Assembly (NCBI GenBank): GCA_031213475.1
Contig: JARUPZ010000025.1
Coordinates: 9,441,544 to 9,505,543 of the forward strand
Direction of reading: 5' to 3'
Length of the DNA stretch: 64,000 bases
Source of the DNA: Nereocystis luetkeana
Lineage: Eukaryota; Sar; Phaeophyceae; Laminariales; Laminariaceae
The notes beneath the pieces are model-generated. The model saw only the letters and a program-made list of their open reading frames with translations, had not been told where the DNA came from and searched no databases. Position numbers and translations under genes: made by a program. Shown piece by piece: positions 3,951-64,000 of this stretch. The first letter of the stretch is position 1, and the number at the start of each line of letters is the position of its first letter.

Positions 3951-4813
3951 ATTAATATTCATATCCGGTTGAACAGAGGAGATCTGAAGTAGAGAACTAC
4001 GACCTACGAGTAGCAAAAATAACAAAACCCTTCTCCCCGGGAAGATAATCCTACACCATCCAATATCAAGATGCTGGGACTGTAAATCATCCCAAGCATC
4101 ACATGAACACCCCAAGCAACACATGAACGTTTTCAGCCAATATACAACATATAGCCTTGTCTGCTATGTATACCTAGGCTCCAAGAACAAATCTTCAAAT
4201 ATATTTCCGTATTCCACAATTATTACCTCTTGATTCCCAACTACACGTTTATCAGATGGACAAAAACAATGCAAGCGGTGGCTTTCCATATTGGGTTCCG
4301 GTAGGAAGCCCCATGGAAGGGACCCTGGGGTTAAAGGGGCTTACTGTCGATTGGATAGGTAATCGGGAAACCCTTTACCGGTAGCCCAACGGACTAATGC
4401 CCAACACTAGTAGTAATAGTGCGTTCGGGATTGAACGTCCCGTCTATATCAACGTCTCTTATCAGAGTTCGTACAGGCCCGTTACAGCCAATACTGGTGA
4501 AACCGTGATGAACAGATATTTGAAGTCCTCTACACTACTAGGAATACAGGTTTTCCGTTATCGCGGCGTTTCTTGAAAGGGGCTAAACGGCTGAACTGAA
4601 CTATGAATGTTGTTCTGGTGTAAATATACAACTTGCGTGATATGAACGGAACACCAAATGCCAAAGGTAGTCCCCGTATCCAACCGCTCGAAACATGAGA
4701 TCACGAAACACCGCACTTATATTATGTGGTGACGTAAAGATGACCTCGGCGCAAGTTAACCTTAGCTCCATACAATCGTCCAATTAAAATAAATCATTAG
4801 CTGAAATTATTGT
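3951..4813. other. Unassigned spacer
   Basis: No coding potential or repeat was recognised. The stretch lies between a diverged repeat and the exon-like segment ending at 4814. Confidence 0.4.
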
Positions 4814-16075: not shown

Positions 16076-16505
16076 TGAGCTCAAGGAAACTACGGTCGGA
16101 GGTGTGCAAGTTCTTGACGAGCTCACATTTTTCACGAGTACCAGGTATCGGATTTTCAGAAGAGCTCCTACGTTTGTTTGTGTTATAACTGTACATTGTA
16201 GCTTCATTCACTGCTGATGCAGGGCCTTTGGATGCTGCTCGACCCATCCCCGACTGAGACCCATCCCCGATTGGGATGCTGGAAGTCAACTGCTCTGATA
16301 ACTCCACACACAGGGCACGCGAAGAGGTGTGGTTTGTACCATGACGATCGCCTCCGCGAGGGTTTCGACCTGATGCTTCGACCTGATGCGTGCTGCATGG
16401 GCGTAGCCGTTCCGAAAGAAAACGTCCGTAGGTGGCCATTACTTTTTTTGTTGCCCTGCCTCCTCTTGTCTCTTATCGCTTGCAGCACAATTGCTGTTTA
16501 TTAGG

Positions 16506-17274: not shown

Positions 17275-17615
17275 TTTTTTTTTTTTTTCTCCTCCCATTT
17301 AATATCTTCGTACATCTTCTTTTCTCTCTCCTTCCAACTCGTAACTCAGATCCGGGGTCACGTAGCAGGCTCTTCTCCCCCCTTCCCGCTACGGTATACG
17401 CGTGCCTTCATTTTTATCGCGAGAAGATTTCGGCCTTTTCTTCCCTCGTCGACTCGCATCGAATTGTGCCTACCCACGCTGCAAGGCGCTCTCAACAATT
17501 GAATCCTTTTTTATTTTTGCAAATAAAGTCAAAGTCCGACCCACCTGGGGCTCGAACCCAGGACTCAAACACGTAGAATTCGAGGTTAACCACTTGAACC
17601 ACCGGGGCGACCGGC
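17275..17615 (-). mobile_element. SINE1 copy a, tRNA-derived
   Basis: On the minus strand the head starts near 17615 with an A box (TGGTTCAAGTGG) and a B box (GGGTTCGAGCCC) with a good T-stem. It is followed by a ~250-bp body and a pyrimidine-rich tail on the plus strand (T run at 17270-17289). It is nearly identical to 23126-23470. The tRNA source is not clear because the anticodon arm has decayed. Transcription would be by RNA polymerase III from the internal boxes. Confidence 0.8.
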
Positions 17616-17623
17616 TTCTCTAG

Positions 17624-17750: not shown

Positions 17751-19854
17751 CAGGGATCTTTACGGTTATATCCGTCCGAGCACGGTGCAGTTTTTTCAAA
17801 TCGATAATCCTACGGTCCGGTTCGGTGCGGTTTTAAATAATCGGAAATGTTACGGTGCGGTTGGGCGCGGTTTTCAAAAATCGAAAATCCTACGGTGCGG
17901 TTTGGTGCGGTTTTCAGATATTGTGAATCCTACGGTGCGGTTCGGTTTTGTGATAAATCCTACGGTGCGGTTCGGTGCGGTTTTCAAAAATCGGAAATCT
18001 TACGGTGCGGTTCGGTGCGGTTTTAGAGAATCGGAAATCTTACGGTGCGGTTCGGTTTAGAGATATATCATACGGTCCGGTTCGGTTCGGTTCCCCGTTG
18101 AATCGGTTTTTCTACGGTGCGGTTCCAATCCCCGTAGGGAAAACAGTACAACCCACGTTTTTCTCTACGGTGCACCATATATATATGATTTTCAGGCTTT
18201 TATCAGGGCATTATAACAAAACCGCTGTTTCTCTACGGTGCGGTTTCGTACGGTTTCTGGCGCTTTTTCTCGGGGCTCTACGTAACGCAAGCGAGCGCTG
18301 CTGCACAAGCAAGCTCTGCTGCAAGCAAACGCTGCCGCAAGCAAACGCTCCTACAAGCAAGCGCTGGTGCAAGCAAACGTTGCTGCAAGCAAGTGCTGCT
18401 GCAAGCAAGAGAGCCACCTCAAGCAAGCGCTGCTGCAAGCGGCGCTGCTACTGCATGAAATGCGGCCAAGGGGTTTCGCTGGATCATTTTGGTTCTCTGA
18501 TACACCACATGGTTCTGGAGATACGGCTTGGTTCTCATTTTAGGCTTCGTTCCCATTTTTCCGATTTGTCTGTTAGCTGCAAGAGCGCGCACCGTTGCCG
18601 CCAAGCTCCTGTGATCTTCGCCGCTCCGATCCCTTCTTGGGTAGAGAGGACAACCAAGAAGGAGGGGCCGATATTCTCGTTGTGGCGGCGTTGCTTGCAC
18701 AGAGAGTATCAAGGAGCGCAAGTTAGATCGCACGTCTGCCTGTTGGTGCTGGCTGCTGCTTACTGCTTCGGCAGCTTACTGCTGCTGATTGTTGTGCTGT
18801 GCTGCACAGACAGGTAGGTACTGCTGCTTGCACGCCTTCTGTTCTGCTCGTTGGACGCTGCTAAAGTGCTGTCGCTGCTGCAAGTAAGTGTGTATTTTTC
18901 AAACATAAAGTCCAATATTGAGCAATTTTTCGTCTCCGATTACGCGCATGACGGAAAAGGCTTTCGATTTTGACCATGCCTCCGACGGAAATCCTTGATA
19001 CACAAAGATATTATGCGCAGGCACTCTAGTGTTTCTGATATTTTTTTTCAGTTTTTTTCAGATACTCAATTTTTCCGGTATATTAATATGTCCTACCATG
19101 GTTTTCCTATTTTCCGGCAGGTGTACTTCCGGAGACTCGGAGTATACCAGGTATAGTATATGTCAGAAATATATAAATATAAACAATTCATCTTAAACAA
19201 CAACTTGTTTTTGGTGTTTCAAGCCCAAAAATATTGAACATACCGGTATGAAATACCATAAGATCAACCAAGCCAGCGGGATCACTTTTGACACGAAACC
19301 GTGCCGAAACCGTTATGAGCCGTGCGAAACGGTGACCCTGTTGCACCGTTCCGCGACCGATGGAACGGCGGTTTACCTACGGTTTCAAGTTAACCGCACC
19401 GTTAAAAAACCGATCTAACGGTTTTTGGCACCGTCTCTTGACGCACACGGTACGGTTCGGTTTGTGATATTTCCTATGGCGCGGCTCGGTGCGGGTTTCA
19501 CAAATCAGAAATCCTACGGTGCGGTTCGGTGCGGTTTTCAGATATTGTGAATCCTACGGTGCGGTGCGGTTTTGTGATGAATCCTACGGTGCGGTTCGGT
19601 GCGGTTTTCAAACTTCGGAAATGCTACGCTCCGGTTCGGTGCGGTTCTAGAAATCGAAAATCTAATGGTGCGGTTCGGTTATTTTTGAAATCCTACGGTG
19701 AGACTCGGTGCGGTTCTCCTATTTCGTAAAACCTACTACGGTGCGGTGCGGTGCGGTTTTCCAAGAGGCAAACATCATACGGTGCGGTGCGGTGCGGTTA
19801 ACCGCACCGAACCGCACCGAACCGATAGGAAAAACCGCACCGTAAAGAACCCTG
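17751..19854. mobile_element. hAT-like non-autonomous element 2 with subterminal arrays
   Basis: The ends are CAGGGATCTTTACGGT (17751) and CAGGGTTCTTTACGGT (reverse complement ending at 19854), a classic hAT-style CAGGG start. Flanking 8-mers are GAAAAAAC (17743-17750) and GGAAAAAC (19855-19862), 7 of 8 identical. Both subterminal regions (17790-18245 and 19440-19850) are arrays of CTACGGTGCGGTTCGGTGCG separated by AT-rich spacers of about 20 bp. A snap-back GGTGCGGTTAACCGCACC lies near 19793-19810. The middle holds a 15-bp GCAAGCAAACGCTGC minisatellite (18290-18450) and no transposase. Subterminal repeats are the usual hAT transposase binding sites; that role is inferred. Confidence 0.85.
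18290..18450 (+). repeat. 15-bp minisatellite inside hAT-like element 2
   Basis: About ten units of a CAAGCAAACGCTGCT-like word with substitutions. Confidence 0.75.
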
Positions 19855-20892: not shown

Positions 20893-23125
20893 GGGAATGC
20901 GGAGAGGGGGGGGAACAGGAGGGGTAGAAGGGAAACGGCAGCAGACGAAAGTAGGAAGGAGATGGCAGACAGGGCAGCAAGGCACCAGGCCGACTAGGAA
21001 GTAGAACATGGCCATACTACTAGGGCCACCAACTGGTGCAGCGGGTTCGAACGTGGTCTTCCCTTGTCATCTCTTTTTGTTTTGTGTTTTTCTTTCTTGC
21101 GCTGACTCTCCGTGATTTTCATTTCACTTTCTTTTTCTTTTCCTTGTCTGATTGTTAAGCCGTACTGAAAGAGCCGTGTGGCGTGGTTGGATGACGAACC
21201 TGCTCTGCTCGTTTCGTATTGTCTGACGCCAAGGGGCTGGGCACAGTTGACAAACGCAGGGCGGAGACGGCAGTCTGGGTAGCAAGGTACAAGGCTGATT
21301 AGCAGGGAGAACCTGGCTATACTACTCGTACCACTAACTGCTGCCGCCACCGGGAAGGTGCTTTGGGCTTTGGTCTGCCTGTTATTTCCCCTTTGTTATT
21401 TTTCCTTTGTTATTTTTTTCCTTGGTTCTTTGTCTTACTCTGTTTACAAGCAGGGGTGTTTTTTGTTATTTTTTTTCTTTTCCCAGCTCGTCATTTTTCA
21501 AGTGTTGGCCACCTCGCCTGCGGGGGGGGGGCACGACAGATTGTTTCTCCTAGTTTTTGCTTTCATTTTTTTTTTTTTCCCTTTCGATTTGTCTACTTTG
21601 TTTTCGTTTTCTCTTTGATTGTTTCTTTTCGTTTCACTTTTTTATAGATTGCGTGTGTCGTGCCTGTCGTATCTAGTATGATGACATGGCTTTGCATTGC
21701 CCACTGCAGTGCATACTGCACACCTGGCTATACTACTCGTACCACAAGCTGCTGCCGCCACCTGGAAGGTGCTTTGGGGTTTGGTCTGCCTGTTATTTCC
21801 CCTTTGTTATTTTCCCTTGTTACTTTTTTCCTTGGTTCTTTGTCTTACTCTGTTTACAAGCAGTGGTGTTTTTTTTTCTTATTTTATTTTACTTTTCTTT
21901 CTTTTCTCCAGCTCGTTCTTTTTCAAGTGTTGGCCACCTCGCCTGCGGTGGGGGGGCACGACATATTGTTTCTCTTAGATTGTGCTTTCATTTTTCTTCT
22001 TTTTCTTTTTCGATTTGTCTACCTTGTTTTTGTTTTCTCTTTGATTGTTTCTTTTCGTTTCACTATTTCAAAGATTGCGTATGTCGTGCCTGTCGTATCT
22101 AGTAGGATGACAGGGTCAACGGAAGTTGCCCCCTTGGTGTTTGGAGTTGAGACCGCGTTGTGGTCCACTGCAGCAAAAAAGGTGGGGAAGTGGTACCGGG
22201 GGATCCTTGAAGCAGCCGAACGGTTCATGGTGAGGTGGCACGAGGCTGAGGCTGAGATGAGTAGACAGCGCCGCGCATCCGCCGTGGATGGTGCCCAAAG
22301 GAACGGGGGGGGAGGGGGCAACAGGAGAAGTGGCATAAAGCCCGACCGAGGGAATGCGGAGAGGGGGGGGAACAGGAGGGGTAGAAGGGAAACGGCGGTA
22401 GACGAAAGTAGGAAGGAGATGGCAGACAGGGTAGCAAGGCACCAAGTCGACTAGGAAGTAGAATATGACCATACTACTAGTGCTACCAACTGGTGTAGCT
22501 GACTCGAACGTGGTCTTCCCTTGTCTTCTCTTTTAGTTTAGTTTTTTTTTCTTTCTTGCGCTGACTCTCCGTGATTTTCATTTCATTTTTTCTCTTCCTC
22601 TTCCTTTTCTGATTGATAAGCCGTACTCAAGGAGCCGTGTGGCGTGGTTGGAAGACGAACCTGCTCTGCTCGGCTCGTATTGTCTGACGCCAAGGGGCTG
22701 GGCATAGTTGACGAACGCAGGGCGGAGACGGCAGTCTGGGTAGCAAGGTACCAGGCGGATTAGCAGGGAGAACCTGGCTATACTACTCGTACCACAAGCT
22801 GCTGCCGCCACCTGGAAGGTGCTTTGGGCTTTGGTCTGCCTGTTATTTCCCCTTTGTTATTTTTCCTTGTTACTTTCTCCTTGGTTCTTTGTCTTACTCT
22901 GTTCACAAGCAGAGGTGTTTTTTGTTATTTCTTCTTTTTTCCAGCTCGTTCTTTTTCAAGTGTTGGCCACCTCTCCTGCGGGGGGGGGGGCACGACAGAT
23001 TGTTTCTCTTAGATTTTGCTTTCATTTTTCTTCTTTTTCTTTTTCGATTTGTCTACCTTGTTTTTGTTTTCTCTTTGATTGTTTCTTTTCGTTTCACTAT
23101 TTCATAGATTGCGTATGTCGTGCCT
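20893..23125 (+). repeat. LINE C 3' UTR with tandem duplications
   Basis: The LINE 3' UTR (20893-21725) is followed by a partial second copy starting again at CTGGCTATACTACTCGTACC (21725-22108). A third block then restarts inside the coding part at GGGTCAACGGAAGTTGCCCC (22112) and repeats the protein tail and whole 3' UTR to 23125. The UTR contains T-rich stretches, TTTTTCAAGTGTTGGCCACC and G runs of 7-10. The duplications look like unequal exchange or template switching rather than separate insertions, since breakpoints fall at internal sites. Confidence 0.75.
22113..22454 (+). pseudogene. LINE RT C-terminal tail, duplicated fragment
   Basis: The frame repeats the last ~110 residues of the LINE protein (VAPLVFGVETALWST ... 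WHEAEAEMSRQRRAS, then a Gly/Arg-rich tail) found at 20660-20892. It is open to its own stop but begins mid-protein, joined to T-rich UTR sequence. Confidence 0.8.
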
Positions 23126-23470
23126 GTCGTATCTCTCTCTCTCATCCCATTCATTATCTTCGCACATCTTCTTCTCTCTCTCCTTCCAACTCGTAACTCA
23201 GATCCGGGGTCACATAGCAGGCTCTTCTCCCCCCTTCCCGCTACGGTACGTGCCTTCATTTTTATCGCGAGAAGATTTCAGCCTTTTTCTTCCCTCGTCG
23301 ACTCGCATCGAATTGTGCCTACCCACGCTGCAAGGCGCTCTCAACAATTGAATCCCTTTTTTTTATTTTTGCAAATAAAGTCAAAGTCCGACCCTCCTGG
23401 GGCTCGAACCCAGGACTCAAACAAGTAGAATTCGAGGTTAACCACTTGAACCACCGGGGCGACCGGCTCT
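23126..23470 (-). mobile_element. SINE1 copy b, tRNA-derived
   Basis: Same element as 17275-17615. On the minus strand it has the A box TGGTTCAAGTGG, the B box GGGTTCGAGCCC, the body, and a GAGAGAGA end at 23126-23140. It splits the LINE 3' UTR between CGTATCT and CTAGTA, so it inserted after the LINE. Confidence 0.8.
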
Positions 23471-23674
23471 AGTACCTGGTTTGATGACATGGCTTTGCAT
23501 TACCCACTGTAGTGCACACTGCACACGTGGCAACGTAGTATCTCTGTGGCGTAGCTTTGTGACCACAGAACTTGTATCTCTTCTAGGATTGAAGAATCGG
23601 CACGGACACTGGTTGTGCTGGATGTCGACGGGTAGAAAGAACGGTTTAATGTGAAGAACACACACACACACACC
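23471..23674 (+). mobile_element. LINE C 3' end with AC tail
   Basis: The last 200 bp of the LINE, ending in an AC run of about eight units. A CCTGGT insertion follows CTAGTA at 23474, relative to other copies (see findings). Confidence 0.75.
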
Positions 23675-24481: not shown

Positions 24482-24861
24482 GGGCAAATACCAGAATCAG
24501 GTATACCTGATCCATTTGTGCCGGAATCAGTTACATACTAAAACCAAGTAAAAACGCCCGCCTCGAGCGGTGTTCGGTCCATGAAAAAATCCGGTAAAAA
24601 AGAATGCGTAAAACATAAAGCATGCCAAATGGCCTCCAAAATCTGCATTGTTTTGTTTGGTTTAGGGTGTACACTATGAATAGGCTTCGTTCGTTTCGCC
24701 ACGGCGGGGGCGCCAAGAGCATCTCGCGCACCCCCTGTTGACAGCTTTAAATCTTCTAGACCGTCCTCGCGAAACCGCCTGCAAGGCACGAAATTATCTT
24801 GTCCTACCAAACCTGAGACCACCTCGACATGGGGTGGTGCAGACAAAGACCATGGTGCTGT
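24482..24861 (-). repeat. Dispersed repeat family F, uninterrupted copy
   Basis: It matches, in inverted order, 43853-44010 joined to 40403-40700, so it represents the empty site of the insertion at 40701-43852. Both copies can be read as protein on the same strand through NFVPxRRFREDxLE and STGG, which hints at an old coding element. It contains a perfect CAGGTATACCTG palindrome at about 24499. Confidence 0.7.
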
Positions 24862-25191: not shown

Positions 25192-25380
25192 GGCCAAAAT
25201 CAGTTGAAAGCTAGACAGAGTAGAAAAAAACAGGTATACCTTGGCATTTTCGAGCCAAAATCAGTTACAATGCCAGCTTGGCCAATAGCAGGGCTCCTGG
25301 GGTGTGTTTTGTACCAGGTATTTGTTTTTAGACTGTAACTGATTTTGTCCGAAAAGTGGCCAGGTATACCTGATTTTGGC
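25192..25380. mobile_element. Short inverted-repeat element (MITE-like)
   Basis: The ends are GGCCAAAATCAG and CTGATTTTGGC. Two further inner inverted words (CAAAATCAGTTAC and GTAACTGATTTTG) sit at 25257 and 25334. Three copies of the CCAGGTA / CAGGTATACC motif lie inside. It has no coding capacity. Related words occur in family F (24490 and 43960-44000). Confidence 0.55.
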
Positions 25381-26080: not shown

Positions 26081-26270
26081 ACTGCATACCAGGTACTACG
26101 TGGCAACGCAGTCCCAGGTATCTCGAACTGTGGCGTAGCTTTATGGTCACAAAACTTGTACTGTTGTATCTCTTCTATAAATGGGGATGAAGAATCGGCA
26201 CGGACACTGGTTGTGCTGGATGTCGACGGGTAGAAATAACGGTTAAATGTGAAGAACACGCACACATTGC
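26081..26270 (+). mobile_element. LINE 3' tail with two motif insertions
   Basis: The last ~190 bp of the LINE (GTGGCGTAGCTTTATGGTCA, GAAGAATCGGCACGGACACT) ending in an AC run. It differs from sister copies by TACCAGGTA at 26087 and a TCCCAGGTA insertion at 26112. Confidence 0.7.
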
Positions 26271-26659
26271 GCTCTCCTCTCCGCGAGTGATAGCTATTAA
26301 TATATTAGCGCGCGTACTGTACTTGTATAGGCTCGGAGTGTTCGTTCTTATTGTGGACCGAAATGTAAATGTTCCTCGGAAAAACCGTCCTCATGACCCT
26401 CGTAGCATCAAGCGGAGTGGCGGAACGTTACCATATACCAGGTATATATATACGTATTTGCCCTACACCGATTCAGCCCGCCCCAGTCTGGACCTTGGGT
26501 GGGCCGATGAAGCCCGCCAACACCTGTAACGGTGTAGCGGCCACCGCCCGGGCGTCGGCCCTCCAACATCGGGCTGGATAGAGAGGGGGCTCTGCTCGGT
26601 CTGGCTGGATAACCTGTCACTTGAAGGATCGCGTGGGGTGGTGGTGACATCTTATAGTT

Positions 26660-33354: not shown

Positions 33355-34312
33355 GGGAATGCGGAGAGGGGGGGGGACAGGAGGGGTAGAAGGGAAACGG
33401 CGGTAGACGAAAGTAGGAAGGAGATGTCAGACAAGGTAGCAAGGCACCAGGCCGACTAGGAAGTAGAACATGGCCATACTACTAGGGCCACCAACTGGCG
33501 CAGCTGGTTCGAACGTGGTCTTCCCTTGTCATCTCTTTTTGTTTAGTTTTTTTTTTTCTTGCGCTGATTCTCCGTGATTTTCATATTTTTTTCTTTCTCT
33601 TTCTTCTTTGATTGATAAGCCGGATTGAAAGAGTCGTGTGGCGTGGTTGAATGGCGAACCTGCTCTGCTCGTTGCGTATTGTCTGACGCCAAGGGGCTGG
33701 GCACAGTTGACAAACGCAGGGCGGAGACGGCCGTCTGGGTAGCACGGTACAAGGCGGATTAGCAGGGAGAACCTGGCTATACTACTCGTACCACAAACTG
33801 CTCCCGCCACCTGGAGGGGGCTTTGGGCTTTGGTCTGCCTGTTATTTTTCCTTTGTTATTTTTTTCCTTGGTTCTTTGTCTGGCATTCTATTTACAAGCA
33901 GTGGTGTTTTGTTACCTAAAATATATATATATATATATCCAGGTCGTTCTTTTTCAAGTGTTGGTTACCCCGGGGGGCACAACAGATTGTCTCTTCTAGT
34001 TTTTCTTTCATTTTTTTATCTTTCTCTTTCGATTGTCTACTTTGTTTTTGTTTTCTCTTTGATTGTTTCTTTTCGTTTCTCTATTCCATAGAATGTGTAT
34101 GTCGTGCCTGTCGTATGATGACATGGCATTGCCCACTGCCTGCTGTGCTTACTGCATACCAGGTACGTGGCAACGTAGTATCTCTGTGGCGTAGCTTTGT
34201 GACCACAGAACTTGTATCTCTTCTAGGATTGAAGAAACGGCACGGGCACTAGCTGTGCTGGATGTCGACGGGTAGAAAGAACGGTTTAATGTGAAGAACA
34301 CACACACATACC
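33355..34312 (+). mobile_element. LINE copy G 3' UTR and AC tail
   Basis: About 950 bp of UTR, with a G run, CATACTACTAGGGCCACCAA, T-rich blocks, an AT microsatellite (33919-33940) absent in other copies, and the conserved tail ending in ACACACACA. TACCAGGTA lies at 34157. This copy shows the intact order coding region, UTR, tail. Confidence 0.8.
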
Positions 34313-36296: not shown

Positions 36297-37201
36297 TCAG
36301 CTGGCTCGAACGTGGTCTTCCCTTGTCTTCTCTTTTAGTTTTTTTTTTTTTTTTTTTTTTTTTTGTTTGTTTTTTTTTTTTTTTTTTATTTTTTTTATTT
36401 TTTTTATTTTTTTTTTTTTTTTCTCTCTTGCGCTGACTCTCCGTGATTTTCATTTCATTTTTTCTCTTCCTCTTCCTTTTCTGATTGATAAGCCGTACTC
36501 AAGGAGCCGTGTGGCGTGGTTGGAAGACGAACCTGCTCTGCTCGGCTCGTATTGTCTGACGCCAAGGGGCTGGGCATAGTTGACGAACGCAGGGCGGAGA
36601 CGGCAGTCTGGGTAGCAAGGTACCAGGCGGATTAGCAGGGAGAACCTGGCTATACTACTCGTACCACAAGCTGCTGCCGCCACCTAGAAGGTGCTTTGGG
36701 CTTTGGTCTGCCTGTTATTTCCCCTTTGTTATTTTTCCTTGTTACTTTCTCCTTGGTTCTTTGTCTTACTCTGTTCACAAGCAGTGGTGTCTTTTGTTAT
36801 TTCTTCTTTTTTCCAGCTCGTTCTTTTTCAAGTGTAGGCCACCTCGCCTGCGGGGGGGGGGGCACGACAGATTGTTTCTCTTAGATTTTGCTTTCATTTT
36901 TCTTCTTTTTCTTTTTCGACTTGTCTACCTTGTTTTGTTTTCTCTTTGATTGTTTCTTTTCGTTTCACTATTTCATAGATTGCGTATGTCGTGCCTGTCG
37001 TATCTAGTATGATGACATGGCTTTGCATTGCCCACTGCAGTTCACACTGCACACGTGGCAACGTAGTATCTCTGTGGCGTAGCTTTGTGACCACAGAACT
37101 TGTATCTCTTCTAGGATGGAAGAATCGGCACGGACACTGGTTGTGCTGGATGTCGACGGGTAGAAAGAACGGTTTAATGTGAAGAACACACACACACACA
37201 T
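36297..37201 (+). mobile_element. LINE 3' UTR copy H with expanded poly-T
   Basis: Starts at CAGCTGGCTCGAACGTGGTC and ends in an AC run. A T tract at 36337-36425 is expanded to about 90 bases, against about 10 in copy G. The last 200 bp are nearly identical to 60000-60238, indicating recent relatedness. There is no coding region. Confidence 0.8.
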
Positions 37202-39164
37202 CAAATGGTCCTCCTGCAATACCTGCGTCTGCTGCGCCAGAAGGTACAGGCCGACACAAGCTATCATACTGGTACGTCAGGCCCGTCAGACGTGCTATTA
37301 TTTGCAGCAAACAATAATTATTCCAGATACAGCAGTTATATTGCTGCAATAAAAGCCTTTTCGTAGGATTGTAAAAACACAACTTGAACCGTACAGCTAA
37401 CGCCATGAGCCATGAGGAAATCTACGTTGCTCAAGGGGGGGCTGTGAAGACAAATACCAGGTACCTGGTAAGCATTATTGTAGGCAGAGGGCGACTGCCG
37501 CAGTGCGACAGCAGTGCAGCAAACGAAGAAAAGCCAGCACTGCCATCTGCATTCGACATGATTTATCCCTCGCAGTCTCGCGGCGCACAGTGCCCTGTTC
37601 CCTGTGCCCTGTGCGACAGCTGCTCCCTGCTGTCACTGCTGTACTTCTGTGTACCGTGCAGCTATACGTCCTGTTATGCTGTTGCGAGATACCCTGGTAT
37701 GGGGTGCGTGCTGGCTATGGGTCGTGTGCTGGTCGTGTCGCGTGTGGCGCATGTGTCCAAAAATCGTAAAGGGGTTTCCATAGGGATATACCAGGTATAT
37801 GAAAGCTTTAATTTAATAAATGTTATTCGTGAAACCAAGAACAAACCTTTCAAGAAGAAAGAGTTCCAGGTCATAAAAGAGACCGAAAGAGGAGACACAA
37901 GCTCAAAAGAGGAGAGGAGCCAGATATATTGGCGGACTCTTCATGTTATCTCATACCAGGTATCAATTTCTTACGATCGTAGGGGAAGTGTAACATCGAT
38001 TCACACCTTTTATCGGTGAAGAATCGATATCTATCTGGTATATTTTGTCACTTCTACGAGTATGGCAAATTGGCCTCTGCCACATCTTGCATCAAAGAAC
38101 AGGCTGCACCTGTTGTGGCTCTTACGTATCGATTGTGTAATTTGGAGGCTCACACTGTCACGCAGATTTGTTTCAGGGTCTTCGGTACGGCTACCTGCAA
38201 TCGGTTTGGGCACAATGCACATCTCCCTCTTCGGCGCAGTCGTACGGTAGACAGCGTCATCGTCAAGCAAACACTGATTTTGGACAGTTACATTGCGATG
38301 ATACGAAAGGCTGAGTACCACTCCAACCCACCCCCCGCACGCGCCGCTGGCGGTGGTGGTGGTGGTGCTGCTACTGCTGCTGATACCGCTACAGTAAGTA
38401 ACTGCTGATATGTTATCTATCTGCCTGACTCGAGGCGTACGATCTGAAGCAACGGCCAGTCCCGTTTGTCGGCTGCATGCACAAGCGTATGCCAAGCTTC
38501 TTTTTACAGAAAGGAGATATCAGGTATCATACAGAGTCAGACCCATCAAACGTTGGACTTCGGTGCGCTAGCTATTGTAAAGGAGCGGCGCAGGTCTTGA
38601 GATATACTACTACCCTCCCTGCTGCTGTGGCTTAGGCTTTGGCTACTGCAGCTGCTGTCACTTACGAGTTACGACTACAACTGATGCTGTATTCGCTGCT
38701 CGTAGCTACGACGATGGCTCCTGCTGCTGCTTGTTGCTGCGTTCAAATTATTCTATATTACTATATGCTCAAATTTTTACGATAGATATTCCAGAAAAAG
38801 ACGGAGAAACCTAAATCCGCTCCCTCACAACGCAAGCGTGAAGAGCGCTTGCAAACAATCCGGTTCGAGAAGCATGTGTTTTGGAGAGCGAGGATAAGCT
38901 GCTTGACGCGCGACGGAGCGAACCGAGCTATGGGCAGAGCGCACCATTGCATTATGTCACGGAAAACAGCGTGCGAGTCTTAATCATGTGGTATCTTGTT
39001 CTTCTGTTCCAAAATATTCGTTTTGCTGTGCGATATCATATAATATCATGTGATGTGATATGATATCATACAGGATCCGATCCGCTATTATATTGGAGGA
39101 AACCTTGTTCTTCTTGACAGGCTTTGTTCTAGGTTGCACGAATATCATGTTTTTGTTGGGGTAC
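37202..39164. other. No confident gene; several TACCAGGTA motifs
   Basis: 37392-37450 resembles part of hAT-like element 1 (CAGCTAACGCCAT, CTCAAGGGGGGGCTGTGA). TACCAGGTA lies at 37455, 37789 and 37954, with an inverse copy at 37462. 38330-38400 and 38560-38740 are GGT/CTG-rich. Open frames here (for example 37384-38019) have low-complexity or unremarkable composition. Confidence 0.4.
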
Positions 39165-40276: not shown

Positions 40277-42529
40277 CTTTACTTAGTTCTTGTGATGTGT
40301 ACTCTGTTGTCTTCTATGCTCTGCTATGGTTACAGCAGTGTATAAGTCGGTTCGAAACTAACTGCTGCGCCGTTATGCTCGTGGGGTCAGACAGCTGTCA
40401 GGTTAGTAGACAGCACCATGGTCATACGGCATTTCGTCTGCTCCACCCCGCGTCGAGGTGGCCTCATGTTGGTACTCGTATATGCGGGAAGATATAATTT
40501 TGTGCCGAGCAGGCGGTTCCGCGAGGACGTTTTAGAAGCTTCAAAGTTTTCAACGGGGGGGGGGGGGGGGCAGAGTAAATACTCTGAGCGCTCCCGCCGT
40601 GCCGAAACAAACGAAGCCTATTAATAGCGACTCTCTGAAGGTTCAAGTGGAGCCCGTGGTACTTAAACCCTAGAGGAAACAAAAAAAGCAGATTTCCGGG
40701 TAGGCCTAATCTTCTAAGACGAGCGAAGCGAGCCGTAAGTCGGACTGGGAAATCGAGCGTAGCGAGCCGCAGGCCGAAAAACATTCGACTAAGTCGCGCG
40801 AGTTTCAATCGTCTTAATCCATATTTTGCGTCTTAGCGCGTCTTGGACTCGTCTTAGCGCGTCTTAGCGCGTCTTAGACTCTCGTCTTAGCGCGCCTTAG
40901 ACACGTCTTGGCACGTCTTAGATTCGTCTTGGCACGTCTTAGGTTCGTCTTGGCACGTCGTAGGTTCGTATATAGGCACGTCTAAGCTCTTGGCAGTACT
41001 AAAGCAAGAATTATGTCGAAAACTAACAGTTATTAGTTACTTCAACGAGGCACGGGTACAGCAATACAGCAACCACACAACAACGTAGAGCGCCAGGAAA
41101 TACGGCAATAAGAATCCAAATATCATCAAGCTACCGGTACCTGATAAGTAAGTGCGATTATTACGTATAATGATGGACGAGCAGTATTATTACGTACTTA
41201 CTTGGTACTCCTACTAGTATTAATAGTAGTTCCTTGTTTGTTGGCTTTTGACGTCACGCACAGCAGTACATAGTTGAATACCAGGTATCTATATATATCG
41301 CTGCCTCGGCAAGGAATGCTGCGAGGCATGCCCTATCCGGCTAATAGCGAGTGGGGTAGGTCTTTCTGGTGGGTGTAAGGCCGGACTCACCCTCAAGGAG
41401 TGATACCTTCTTGCTGCTGCCTGTGGCCGCGAGGCTCAGGCGGCAGTAGAGTTGGGTCGTACGTGGTGCGTCAGGCACGGACACCTACGATTCGCGCGTC
41501 TTTTTTAGGCAGCTGCGGCAGAGCAGCAATGCTCAATCGGGGTGTCCGTGCGCGGAGGCAGGCGCCACCACAGGCCACACTACGGCACAGTCTATTGCGC
41601 CGGTAGGAGGCTGGACTCGACGACGAGGGAGGAGGGAGACTGAGCGTCGACGTGCGGGGAAGAGACGGATTGACCTCCCCCTGCGCGAGAATTTTTATTT
41701 TCCAGATCAGAACCGCAAGTGCGAGGAGCATTTTGTTTTTCAGGATGACGGAGAAAGGGAAACGACTGGAAGGGAATGGCAACGAGTGCACGCGCAAAGG
41801 AGCGGGTGGATTGGGCCAAGGCGATGATGCGGCCATGAAGAGCGGCAGGAAGACGGTGCATGGAGACCCATGATCTGCGCGCACACTATCATCACGAGAG
41901 AAGCAGTCATAGTTTGTTTTTTCCTGGTATTGTTTTTCACGAGGCAGAATAGTATCTACCGGTACTTGTTATAAACGTCGTCACTGCTGGTCTTTGTAGT
42001 TTAACGAGTTGTATACCCTTCATGGGGAATAACCTACGCAATTATCAGGGGCATGGTATCATAACTGCTGTGCTGCACTTTTTTGTGTCAGACAGTCCAG
42101 GAAGAGATTATGGCGATCGTTGATATTCGTGTGGTAGTAAGGTTCGATTGCTCCTTTTTTGACTGCATATCCGCGAGTCTTCACTCTGACAGCACCCCAG
42201 ATAGCAGGCAGGTGTGTTCCTCTTTCGTTTTCACGACTACCGTGCGTTTCGTACGGTGCAGGCAGCACTTCAGACAGCATCCGCTGTAGTCAGCAGCCAC
42301 GAGTTGGTTAGTGGTGGGAACGGGGGTACTCTTCTATGTTATAGTTGAGAGGATATACCCGCGGCCATGTTAGTTCAGTTTTGCACATTGGTTTTATCTT
42401 GTGTGCGCTTTTTTCGTCTCGTGTATTTTGAGGCAGCCGAATTTTCGATTTTTTTTTGTTTTTCGGATCTTCCTAGGGCTCCAGCACCTTTGTGTTACCA
42501 CGGACTCCTTCGTCAGAGAGTTAATGTGA

Positions 42530-59987: not shown

Positions 59988-60240
59988 CCACTTTTCGTTT
60001 CACTATTTCATAGATTGCGTATGTCGTGCCTGTCGTATCTAGTATGATGACATGGCTTTGCATTGCCCACTGCAGTTCACACTGCACACGTGGCAACGTA
60101 GTATCTCTGTGGCGTAGCTTTGTGACCACAGAACTTGTATCTCTTCTAGGATTGAAGAATCGGCACGGACACTGGTTGTGCTGGATGTCGACGGGTAGAA
60201 AGAACGGTTTAATGTGAAGAACACACACACACACACGACT
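59988..60240 (+). mobile_element. LINE 3' end copy I
   Basis: Starts at TTTTCGTTTCACTATTTCATAG and ends in an AC run; nearly identical to 36955-37201. Strongly 5' truncated. Confidence 0.8.
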
Positions 60241-62390
60241 ACAAAAAAGCTGCTGTAGTACTGGTAGGACACCCGCAGCAGTATACTGATACGTGGTATT
60301 TTGTTTTAGGAACAGCGGTTGTGTGACTAAATACGCCATTCCTCGTATATGCATATGTGAGCAGCCTACGAACGGCTCGGCTATAATTGCGAATTGTATC
60401 CATTGGTATCCATCGCGTGGGATATTCGCCTGCGAGTTATTGAACGACCATACCTGGTACCTGGTACCTGATACGAGCGATAGTATACGTATGAATTAAC
60501 CATACTGGCGACCCCCCCCACAGCGAGAATAGCCATAAATGTACCTGGTATTTTATTTGAATGCCTTGGTTACAGGATTTCAACACATACATACCTGGTA
60601 CATAGTAGCCTACAAAGTCTGGTGTACGAGCGAGGTACTAATAGGGGTACGTAATACTATTTTAGTGACGAAATTTCCCGTGAACCCTCCCCTTCCTTTC
60701 TCGCGATATATTTAGGTAGACAAACGATGCACGGTCGGTGCCCCTTTCTTGATGTGATGGTGTAGCACATCCACCGTATAGGAATGCATATATTTATACT
60801 CGTACGTAGGCGAACCTTACCTGGTTGCACGTATATACAATGCGAAGAACACACACGTACGGGTAGCGCTCTGGGAATACCAGATATTATACCTGTAGAC
60901 AATTCTTATATAGTTGCACGTAGCTCTTTAGGAATATATCTGCAGGCGAATTTTAAATGTTGCTCATTGGGACCAGCTTGTATTTCTGCACCCCTCTTCA
61001 GATTGCCCGTCCGCACGCTGCTTCTACCGTGCAGAACAGGCTCTATGATGCACTACTTTCCTGCTGCTCTACTATAAATACAGGACGCATGCTGCGGAAA
61101 TTAATCGGATTTCTGCTTTTTATGCCCCACCCCCACGGCCTATAGGATACAAACGATGTCTATTATTTTTAGATTTTTTTTCTACTGCTCTTTACGTGCA
61201 CGTTTTCCAGCATTAACGACTTAAAGCGGCTTTATGTTGCCGAACCTTGTCCGTCTGCTGCCTAGGCGCATTTAAATTTGCCAGTTTTAAGCCAGAAATA
61301 AGGTATATATAGATATGCTGCACAAATATGTCCGGCTACAGCCTCTTACGTGCACGTTCCTCAGCGTTACCGACGAAACGAGGCTTTGTGGCGCGCAACT
61401 TTGTCTACTGCTGCATACGTCTACCCCCCCCCAGCTGTAGCACATCAAAACAGAATGTATGCTACCTGATCTGGCCCGAATATTAGTTTGGTCGTGTTTG
61501 TTTTCCCTTTCTTTTTTGTTTTCGACGTGTGCCTCCCTTCCGTTTTTTTTTCTCTTCTTTTCTTGTTTTGCTCCCACCTTAAATCAAAGCAGGGTAGACA
61601 CTGTTCAAGTTTGTAACAAGTGTTATTTTCCAACGCACCCCACCCCCACCAGCTTTTACAAATAAAGCAGGGTGCAGGCTGCCTAGAACCGTAACACCGC
61701 AAAGGCTACACAAACTAGTAAACAACTGTTTCTCCCATGTTTGTCCAGCTCATCACAAAAACAGCAGCTGCAAGCTGCTCGAATATGGAGCATAGTAACT
61801 GTGGCCCGGACAGTGACCATTTCCGAGAGTGATGAACTAAATGCTGGCCAAACTAACACAATAATACAAAACATCCTTCGCGGCGGATTAGCGTCTTCGA
61901 CTCCCCCAAAGGAGCCGATTGATACTCTTTTCCATGTTTTTACGTACCGGGGTCTATTTCTTATTTTTATTTTTATTTTTGTTCCCACTTGTGCCACGTC
62001 TACGATACCCTAAATATCTCACAACGTATCGGGCCTCGCGACCCCCGAAACGTATCGGTTGCTGTCTGTTTCTACCACGGAACGAAAAACTGCCCACCGT
62101 TCAAGTAGGGAATCGCCCGATATGCTGTGCAGCTACCAAATAGTGCCGGCATGCTGCAATTTCCCCCCCGACTCGACCTACACGTTTCCTTTACGGGTAC
62201 TCTAATTGTATCCCAACGAAAGGTCTTGCACTGCCCACGCCCAGTAATCGTCACGCCCTGTTATCATTACGAACATTGGACATTTCAGACGGAGTTCTGT
62301 TCAATTCAGTTCAACTGATATCACTTGAGTGACTCGGGCGCGACTACCGTCAATCACACGCGAGGCGCCTGAAACTAGCTAGACGTCCTC
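60241..62390. other. No gene recognised; cluster of TACCTGGTA motifs
   Basis: TACCTGGTA lies at 60451, 60458 (overlapping tandem), 60542 and 60592, with near matches at 60820 and 60881. The open frames are short and of low complexity. Several C runs and GCTGC/CAGC words occur. Confidence 0.45.
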
Positions 62391-62393
62391 AAC

Positions 62394-62400
62394 TATAAAA
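62394..62400 (+). promoter_or_regulatory. Possible TATA box
   Basis: TATAAAA about 205 bp upstream of the ATG at 62605. The distance fits a promoter with a moderate leader, but no start site can be seen. Confidence 0.25.
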
Positions 62401-62604
62401 ATATCCTTCGACGGGCACTATAATTGTGGCACACCCCCCTCAATACCCCTTATAGTACGTCCTTACCGTCACTCCTTTCTGTCCCCTAGATCGGTTTGTT
62501 GGTATTGTAGCCGCCTACCCTGATCCAAGCCTGGATCCGCCCGCCCTCTCCATCTTCCACCAAACCTTTTCCCGCCCCAGTACAAGCGTTCTACCCGCCT
62601 AAAC

Positions 62605-64000
62605 ATGGCCGAGAAAGCTTCCTCCACCGACATGCCCGGCGCCCCTTCCCCCGACACCATCAACCCCCGCGAGGCGAGGTATGCCGCAAGGTCCTCTCGC
62701 GCCACGGACGATGACACTCCCGGACGAAACCATTCTGAGTGACCTCGCTCTACACCCCACCACACCGGGATCTTCTCCACTGGGAGCAGGCACGGCCAGT
62801 GCCGAGCCTACCATCAAACCGGAAGTCTCCGCACAGGAAACTTCCACCCCTGCTCTCAATCCGGGGCACTACCAAGGCGATCCCACGGCTCTCCGTGAGC
62901 GCCGCGCGGCCCTCAAAGCCCACCACGAGCAGCTCCTCCTTCTTGCGAAAGAGAGCGCTGACCTCTTACTCGTGTTACCGCCCTCTCCTACCCCTTCCTC
63001 GAACCCCTTCGACCCCACCTACGAGACTGCAGCTGCGACCACGGCCCCCACGGCCCAACCGCAGCCGTCGGCTCCGCACCCTGGACCACCCTTTACGTCC
63101 GCCGCGATGTCTAGGACCACCACCTCCCAGCGCCCCCTAAACCAAGCTGAGACCACAATGTCCCAGACACCACTACCGGTCCAATCCTTGCCAGCCCCCA
63201 AACCCACTGGGCACCGGCAACCGCAGACGTTCGGCTTTGAGTCAAATGACTGGGTCTTTCTGGACGCCAAGCTCCGCTGGATGCAGAGTACACGCGACCC
63301 GATAGCCTCAGAGGTCTCTATAGCGGCACACCGCGTCTGGCGACTGTTCACACCCGACTGCGACCCGTCGATCACCTTCGTTCTGGCCCGCGCCGCCACC
63401 GAGGGTGCCTCGTCCGAGTTTATCGGGGCCGCCAACACCCTTTTACTTGAGCTAAGGTATTTCCACTCCAACGCCGGCCGCGGCTACGTGTGGAACCCGA
63501 CCGAGTCTCGACCCACCCCTCCGACACCCCCAACCACCCGTCCCACGACGAACACACCGTCACCATCGACACCGCCCCACGCCCCTTCGACACCGGCCAC
63601 CACAACGACAGCGCTCCCCTCTACACGAGCGCTCGGCCTGACGACAGGAGCCACTACGGAGCCCATGACGGAAGCGGAACGACGCAGTGTCCGGCGCCTC
63701 TACGCCGGGGTCGATATGCGCAAGTTTAGTGCGCTCGTGCGACTCCCATGCCCGGACAACATCGAACCTGCCGTTTACCTAGGCATGTTCCTGGCCAGCG
63801 TCAAGCTGGTCCTTGGCGAGATCCTGATCGTGCGCGACGATTCAGAGAAACAATCGTTCGACACACCCCCGTGGGTAGCGGGATGGGATGCCCCACTCCA
63901 ACGGAGTTTTCGCAAGGCGCTGTCGTCCCCCCAGGTCATGGCATCGCCACTGCCCCGCCTCATCGATGATTTCTTCGTAGAAGTGCGCCAAGAACTCACC
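62605..64000 (+). CDS. Long Pro/Thr-rich protein, open at right edge
   Basis: Two overlapping frames. The first starts at ATG 62605 (MAEKASSTDMPGAPSPDTIN) and stops at 62742 after 45 residues. The second, in the +1 frame, is open from ATG 62711 for 430 codons to the end of the window. It has an Ala/Pro/Thr-rich N-terminal part, a first compact region (GFESNDWVFLDAKLRWMQST, about 63230-63480), a Thr/Pro linker (63495-63660), and a second compact region (RRLYAGVDMRKFSALVRLP ... GMFLASVKLVLGEILIV). GC is higher than in the surroundings. It may be a gag-like or ORF1-like retroelement protein or a host gene; no zinc knuckle or enzyme motif is seen. The frames join with a one-base change near 62718 or a +1 shift. 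Confidence 0.6.

Follow-up and report, generated by a model that had tools for sequence, protein, structure and literature searches.

The palindromic word TACCWGGTA is found about once per 2.5 kb in the genome of the brown alga Nereocystis luetkeana, and its copies are likely to be scars that healed after the excision of a DNA transposon of the cut-and-paste type, akin to Tc1/mariner/pogo elements. Comparisons of repeat copies support the insertion of five bases, CCWGG, with duplication of a target TA, and the flanks of the units show a symmetrical target preference. The excision step is one that we infer, the parent element not having been found in the regions searched. Insertion of CCWGG with TA duplication had been proposed from a few LINE tails in the 64,000-nucleotide stretch of DNA analysed here (the window). 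That original prediction named no agent, and the excision scar is an addition of the present analysis.

Abundance of the TACCWGGTA word

In the assembly (465,085,209 bases in 1,987 contigs), we counted 182,395 copies of TACCWGGTA, against 1,744 of the reversed word. The window contains 15 copies at 13 loci, where 40 order-2 Markov simulations gave a mean of 0.7 and a maximum of 3. Among 16 palindromic words of the form TA-XYWyx-TA counted in the window, the word with CCWGG occurred 15 times and every other at most twice. Besides the units in repeats that are described below, the word count of the window comprised TACCAGGTA units at 16139..16147, 19145..19153, 26436..26444, 37789..37797, 37954..37962 and 41279..41287 and a double unit, TACCAGGTACCTGGTA, at 37455..37470. 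For detailed analysis, the window was combined with 20 stretches of 10 kb, which started at round coordinates and were spread over 15 contigs, into a sample of 264 kb. These 20 stretches contained 72 units in 200 kb, and the 77 loci of the whole sample were reduced to 72 by dropping those with identical flanks or too close to the end of a stretch. The 182,395 genomic units are not all independent, as one LINE site exists in 156 copies and several units lie within the repeat at 60234-63698.

The word is narrowly defined in both its centre and its length. In the sample, 87 of the 93 occurrences of TACC-N-GGTA had A or T at the centre and 6 had C or G. The W carries no separate information, because CCAGG on the other strand reads CCTGG. 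When the spacer in TACC-N(k)-GGTA was varied from k=0 to k=3, the sample contained 14, 93, 12 and 7 occurrences, respectively, with 8, 2 and 2 in the reversed controls for k=0, 2 and 3.

Other TA-bounded words were also in excess: TAC(A/T)GTA was found 87 times where about 38 were expected, TACGAGTA/TACTCGTA 48 times where about 11 were expected, and TACATA/TATGTA 195 times where about 105 were expected. The analysis of their flanks revealed no target preference like that of CCWGG for TAC(A/T)GTA or TACGAGTA/TACTCGTA. In the window, TACGAGTA occurs 13 times (1.4 expected); five of these share one LINE position and the other eight are at 4005, 25081, 26058, 27263, 38055, 40473, 58131 and 60797.

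Filled and empty sites in repeat copies

The clearest record of insertion comes from repeat copies that differ by a unit. Only a handful of pairs are clean, with TA in one copy, TACCWGGTA in the other and both TAs kept. The TACCTGGTA unit at 60592..60600 is private to the window copy of a repeat: the copy in stretch L020 is empty and reads TACATAG (95.1% identity across a 3,490-column alignment), and the copy in L036 is deleted there. The alignment of this repeat also shows units common to the window, L020 and L036, namely TACCTGGTA at 60542..60550 and the double unit TACCTGGTACCTGGTA at 60451..60466, which is followed by CCTGATA, perhaps a decayed third unit. The TACCAGGTA unit at 25312..25320 has an empty counterpart in a diverged repeat copy at 24491-24568 (minus strand). 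In the other stretches, the site at L029:2187 is filled and those in L021 and L032 are empty, the site at L029:8897, within a MITE-like repeat, is filled and its copies in eight other stretches are empty, and a second site, in the LINE copy of L016, is likewise filled against an empty counterpart. These pairs support the proposed insertion better than the three cases from which it was derived. As different copies have different TAs hit, the motif does not appear to be an ancestral one that was lost in pieces.

The repeat at 60234-63698 is at least 3.4 kb long and 95-96% identical in L020 and L036. Judging by the spacing of its units, it is probably present again on contig C1 near 214.6 kb.

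Between the repeat copies of the 264-kb sample there are 19 distinct sites of seven-base indels, of which four are the CCWGG unit: L029:2187, L029:8897, 60595 (exact) and 26113 (decayed). Another seven-base word likewise accounts for 4 of the 19, at the CTAGTAT place of the LINE and in L022. This unbiased set contains 23 six-base, 19 seven-base and 6 eight-base indels, with no peak at seven. An earlier tally, in which 18 of 51 seven-base indels were the unit, was discarded because 13 of the 18 rows came from L010-L017, which had been chosen for carrying the filled LINE site; some sites had also been counted twice. The tally does not affect our weighing of the explanations, for which we used the abundance of the word in the genome, the target preference and the clean filled/empty pairs.

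The LINE tails in which the insertion was originally proposed show a more complicated picture. A comparison was made between tail copies at 23472..23672, 26098..26266, 34113..34311, 37000..37200 and 60035..60236 (all on the plus strand), the last two of which have all three sites empty. All the strings quoted in the original prediction are present in the window. Its main case is a decayed unit, TCCCAGGTA, at 26112..26120. This copy reads GCAGTCCCAGGTATCTC, with CCAGGTA at 26114-26120 and TCCCAGG at 26112-26118. Removal of TCCCAGG was said to restore the family sequence exactly with the target TA preserved. In fact, it leaves GCAGTATCTC, where the sister tails have GTAGTATCTC, so that besides the insertion a change from GTAG to GCAG is needed, and the left TA has become TC.

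At 34157..34165 the unit, TACCAGGTA within ACTGCATACCAGGTACGTGG, is indeed found, and it had been explained by an insertion. Its 20-base string has 156 exact copies in the genome (85 forward and 71 reverse), and the copy near 26 kb has a TACCAGGTA unit at the same LINE position (26087..26095, followed by an extra CTA). As the unit is thus shared, the site is most simply read from these copies as one old insertion that was spread by retrotransposition, i.e., as an inherited mark of a LINE subfamily rather than a private event. The sister tails of the window that lack the unit read ACTGCACACGTGG there, with CA instead of TA. The third case, TACCTGG at 23473..23479, was likewise borne out in its sequence (CTAGTACCTGGTTTGATGAC), but it is a decayed unit in which TT has replaced the right TA, and no more than 5 bp upstream of it lies the end of a SINE-like insert. 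Two further TACCWGG words, at 22749 and 36621, differ from their sister LINE copies by substitution and not by insertion.

Several other features of these repeats were observed. At the site between CTA and GTAT in the LINE tail, different copies carry different short insertions at the same TA, for example TACTGTA and TATTAATA (L017, L038, L045, L046, L052, L053 and L057), as if this TA were a hotspot for several TA-targeting events; the tail in L016 has a double TACCTGG unit at this site. A SINE-like repeat is present at 17288-17616 and 23140-23468 in copies that are 94.9% identical, the second of which (about 23135-23468) sits inside a LINE tail. The window also contains a copia ORF with a best match of 70% identity; the 120 matches listed of 205 included proteins from Ectocarpus sp. 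CCAP 1310/34, one from Hapterophycus and a few named ones from other groups.

Target-site preference

The sites of the units show a palindromic preference that is about 16 bp wide and centred on the TA. On the 144 sides of the 72 loci, a pyrimidine (C/T) occurred at position +1 with a frequency of 0.79 (background 0.60), T at +3 with 0.47 (0.28), T at +6 with 0.49 (0.25) and A/T at +7 with 0.85 (0.54). In a leave-one-out test, a score built from this preference distinguished the unit sites from other TAs (p=7e-25). Decayed neighbouring units were controlled for by dropping 14 of the 144 sides, which resembled the unit at 5 or more of 7 positions; the bias persisted in the remaining 130 (p=4e-9 at +6 and p=3e-12 at +7). 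The preference is symmetrical around the TA, and the observed insertions are thus not off-centre from it, as the original prediction held. Such a symmetrical, palindromic preference is the mark of a transposase dimer, and it is the strongest evidence for a putative origin of each unit by transposase-type integration.

Most loci have a single unit (69 of the 77 in the sample), and double units can be explained by the target preference, with which they agree quantitatively. Genome-wide, there are 15,917 doubles per 182,395 units (8.7%), against 2 in the reversed control. By the preference score, 8.3% of insertions should land in TAs that belong to scars already present. In the sample, 8 of 80 units were inserted in scar TAs, a figure that is not independent of the prediction, as the score was trained on that sample. 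Doubles with the A-centred unit followed by the T-centred one number 4,522 and those in the opposite order 1,856, a ratio of 2.4; by arithmetic, the preference at +3 predicts an excess of 2.7-2.9-fold. The remaining 9,539 of the 15,917 (60%, by subtraction) have the same orientation, where about 50% would be expected under independent events. Amplified repeats, such as the one with the double unit at 60451, add to this class.

Age of the units

The 264-kb sample contains 87 intact units. Words with one mismatch numbered 97, where six order-3 simulations gave 46-66, and words with two mismatches 513, where the simulations gave 527-580. As the excess of units decayed by one step is about half the number of intact ones and no excess of two-step forms is visible, most units look young. 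If L020 represents the original state, the insertion at 60592 would have occurred after the repeat copies, now about 5% different, had begun to diverge.

Search for a parent element

No parent element was found within the window. In the 264-kb sample, none of the 116 inverted-repeat pairs flanked by TA began with CCWGG; the few that began with CCT or CCA were all inside CGGGGGACC repeats. The 92 TACCWGG half-sites without a following TA had no common continuation. Candidate transposases were sought across the genome. DDE_1 (pogo-type) had 28 matches among 48 candidates scored, several of them with stops and none tied to the scars, and DDE_3 had no matches among 30 candidates scored. Inspection of 6 kb at each of the two best DDE_1 loci yielded no convincing element ends (at best 16 and 19 of 30 bases).

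The second-best of these loci (L067, C35:5109500-5115500) has a 415-amino-acid open frame that matches DDE_1. What we take to be the place of its middle (second) catalytic D appears to read G, and from its sequence the frame may represent a decayed relic or else a gene that was domesticated. Five other stretches (L068-L072) share one DDE_1 match; those from four small contigs show 100% identity over about 2.4 kb to a stretch of contig C2. They are probably assembly duplicates and give no information on polymorphism. Two kinds of short element were also seen. A frequent MITE-like family of about 99-105 bp has ends CGGGGGACCATAG..., apparently after TTA (L021:3573-3671, L028:4682-4786, L029:8853-8957, L032:8871-8969 and others). 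At L035:6350-6567 there is a 218-bp TA-flanked element with inverted ends CAGCAGTGGGCGCC, which resembles, by length alone, the 217-bp TcMar-N1_Ec32 named in the Ectocarpus element study (PMC12477816).

In a collection of viral sequences, the LINE tail had no matches. Nine viral loci had the double unit, with 2-3 copies of TACCWGGTA each and little outside the array that was used as the query. They were taken as chance matches.

Origin of the units

The units have properties of a Tc1/mariner/pogo footprint: the TA target is doubled when filled in the few filled/empty pairs, and the preference is palindromic and centred on the TA. In a likely course of events, a transposase-like dimer would have joined DNA into a TA with palindromic surroundings (approximately wANNAYRTAYRTNNTw), whereby the TA was doubled; of this step the sites retain the trace. 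On excision, staggered cuts inside the element ends would leave single-stranded CCAGG/CCTGG tails on both flanks. Of the five positions of these tails, all but the central one would pair (C-G, C-G, centre, G-C, G-C); ligation would then leave, in most cases, an identical five-base scar, CCWGG, with a TA on either side. The tails may be 5 nt long, or 3 nt (CCA) and paired only at the mismatched tip. Pairing of the tails at four of five positions would explain the A/T centre of 87 of the 93 TACC-N-GGTA words and the rarity of other lengths. The W itself was considered as proof of mismatch repair, but this idea was abandoned, since CCAGG and CCTGG represent a single word read on opposite strands. 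Once healed, the scars would be inherited and copied within LINEs and larger repeats, as is seen for the units, and later insertions would re-hit the scar TAs, since the scar resembles the favoured target, giving rise to short arrays. Since a scar can remain after every jump, a small number of elements would be compatible with a large number of scars, if a few frequent jumpers were active over a long time.

An origin without any parent element would account for several of the same observations. An integrase-like enzyme might write the 5-bp CCWGG, together with a duplicated TA, directly into palindromic TA sites. Both the duplication of the TA and the preference for certain targets are typical of an integrase, most of the inserts are uniform, and no parent was seen in 264 kb or around the two DDE_1 matches. 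However, we know of no such writing activity, and excision scars explain the same facts by known steps, which makes direct writing improbable. It is similarly improbable, in a version of this idea, that the activity comes from a low-copy DDE_1 (pogo-type) gene, with the marks, as favoured targets themselves, spreading as a self-seeding sequence. A further origin lies in miniature elements that lost their middle by internal deletion rather than by excision. Their short inverted ends, left back to back, would resemble CCWGG, and TACC-NN-GGTA is somewhat in excess (12 against 2 in the reversed control). As random internal deletions should give a spread of lengths, whereas the observed length is nearly constant across k=0 to 3, we consider such a collapse quite unlikely. 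The units are not MITEs, as the insert of 5 bp plus TA is not a short element with terminal inverted repeats and a target-site duplication.

The arrays, and the 60% of doubles in the same orientation, could suggest a 7-bp tandem repeat that spreads by slippage or unequal exchange. In tandem repeats and microsatellites head-to-tail arrays are normal, whereas here single units predominate and orientation is mixed within arrays. Single-unit insertions at plain TAs without an earlier unit refute slippage as the main route, and we give this explanation very little credence. Selection on a functional word, such as a protein-binding or CCWGG methylation site, would fit the high count of one palindromic word, but it seems highly improbable for units that are located in repeats (LINE tails, a MITE-like repeat and others), that are in part private insertions and whose flanks show the preference of an insertion site. 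Excision scars thus remain the likely origin of the TACCWGGTA units.

Comparison with known transposons

Excision of Tc1/mariner elements, in the parts of the literature drawn on here, involves cuts inside the 5' ends, after which the element-derived tails are joined into a short footprint (PMC7827188, PMC2170065, PMC4561436). According to the excerpted account of Sleeping Beauty, this Tc1/mariner element shares with the proposed scars the cut-and-paste movement at TA, the staggered cuts, the element-derived 3' tails and the short end-joining footprint; however, it cuts three nucleotides inside, whereas the scar of the alga is 5 bp long and nearly uniform, with more than 10^5 copies and no parent found in the searched regions (PMC7827188). 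The passages on Stowaway MITEs and Osmar, a plant mariner, likewise describe a 2-bp duplication and a short element-derived footprint. In that system the elements themselves are abundant, while in the alga it is the scars that are abundant, with no element seen in the 264-kb sample (PMC4561436). ISY100, of the IS630 type, also targets TA and, in the sections that treat its cleavage, is cut precisely at its 3' ends but internally at its 5' ends; however, it is bacterial and these cuts lie two nucleotides inside, not five (PMC2170065). The 5-bp scar thus exceeds the 2-3-nt cuts of the Tc1/mariner elements described there, which speaks against the excision origin (PMC2170065, PMC7827188). In Ectocarpus, which is probably a related host, 17 families of mariner-Tc1 elements and MITEs with nearly 12,000 copies were reported; the main text of that study, the part considered here, contains neither 'excision' nor 'footprint' and describes no scar class (PMC12477816).

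None of the whole words TACCAGGTA, TACCTGGTA and TACCWGGTA occurred in the literature searched, which lacks most subscription journals. Longer tandem strings of the unit gave, among the matches listed, papers on unrelated subjects, in which the strings perhaps stem from primers. No such scar class was found in the literature searched on footprints, Ectocarpus elements and TA insertion. The kind of event is known, and the 5-bp length of the scar, its uniformity, its number and its role as a target appear, to us, to be new.

Studies of transposon scars usually deal with a few of them. If no parent element exists, the units would represent a new way of adding DNA to a genome. If they are scars, as is likely, then a genome with such a unit every 2.5 kb or so would preserve a fossil record of cut-and-paste activity over a long time, and its scars would serve as targets of subsequent insertions. 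A single assembly, even with hardly any element left, would then reveal how targets are chosen, how faithfully breaks are repaired and how often elements jump.
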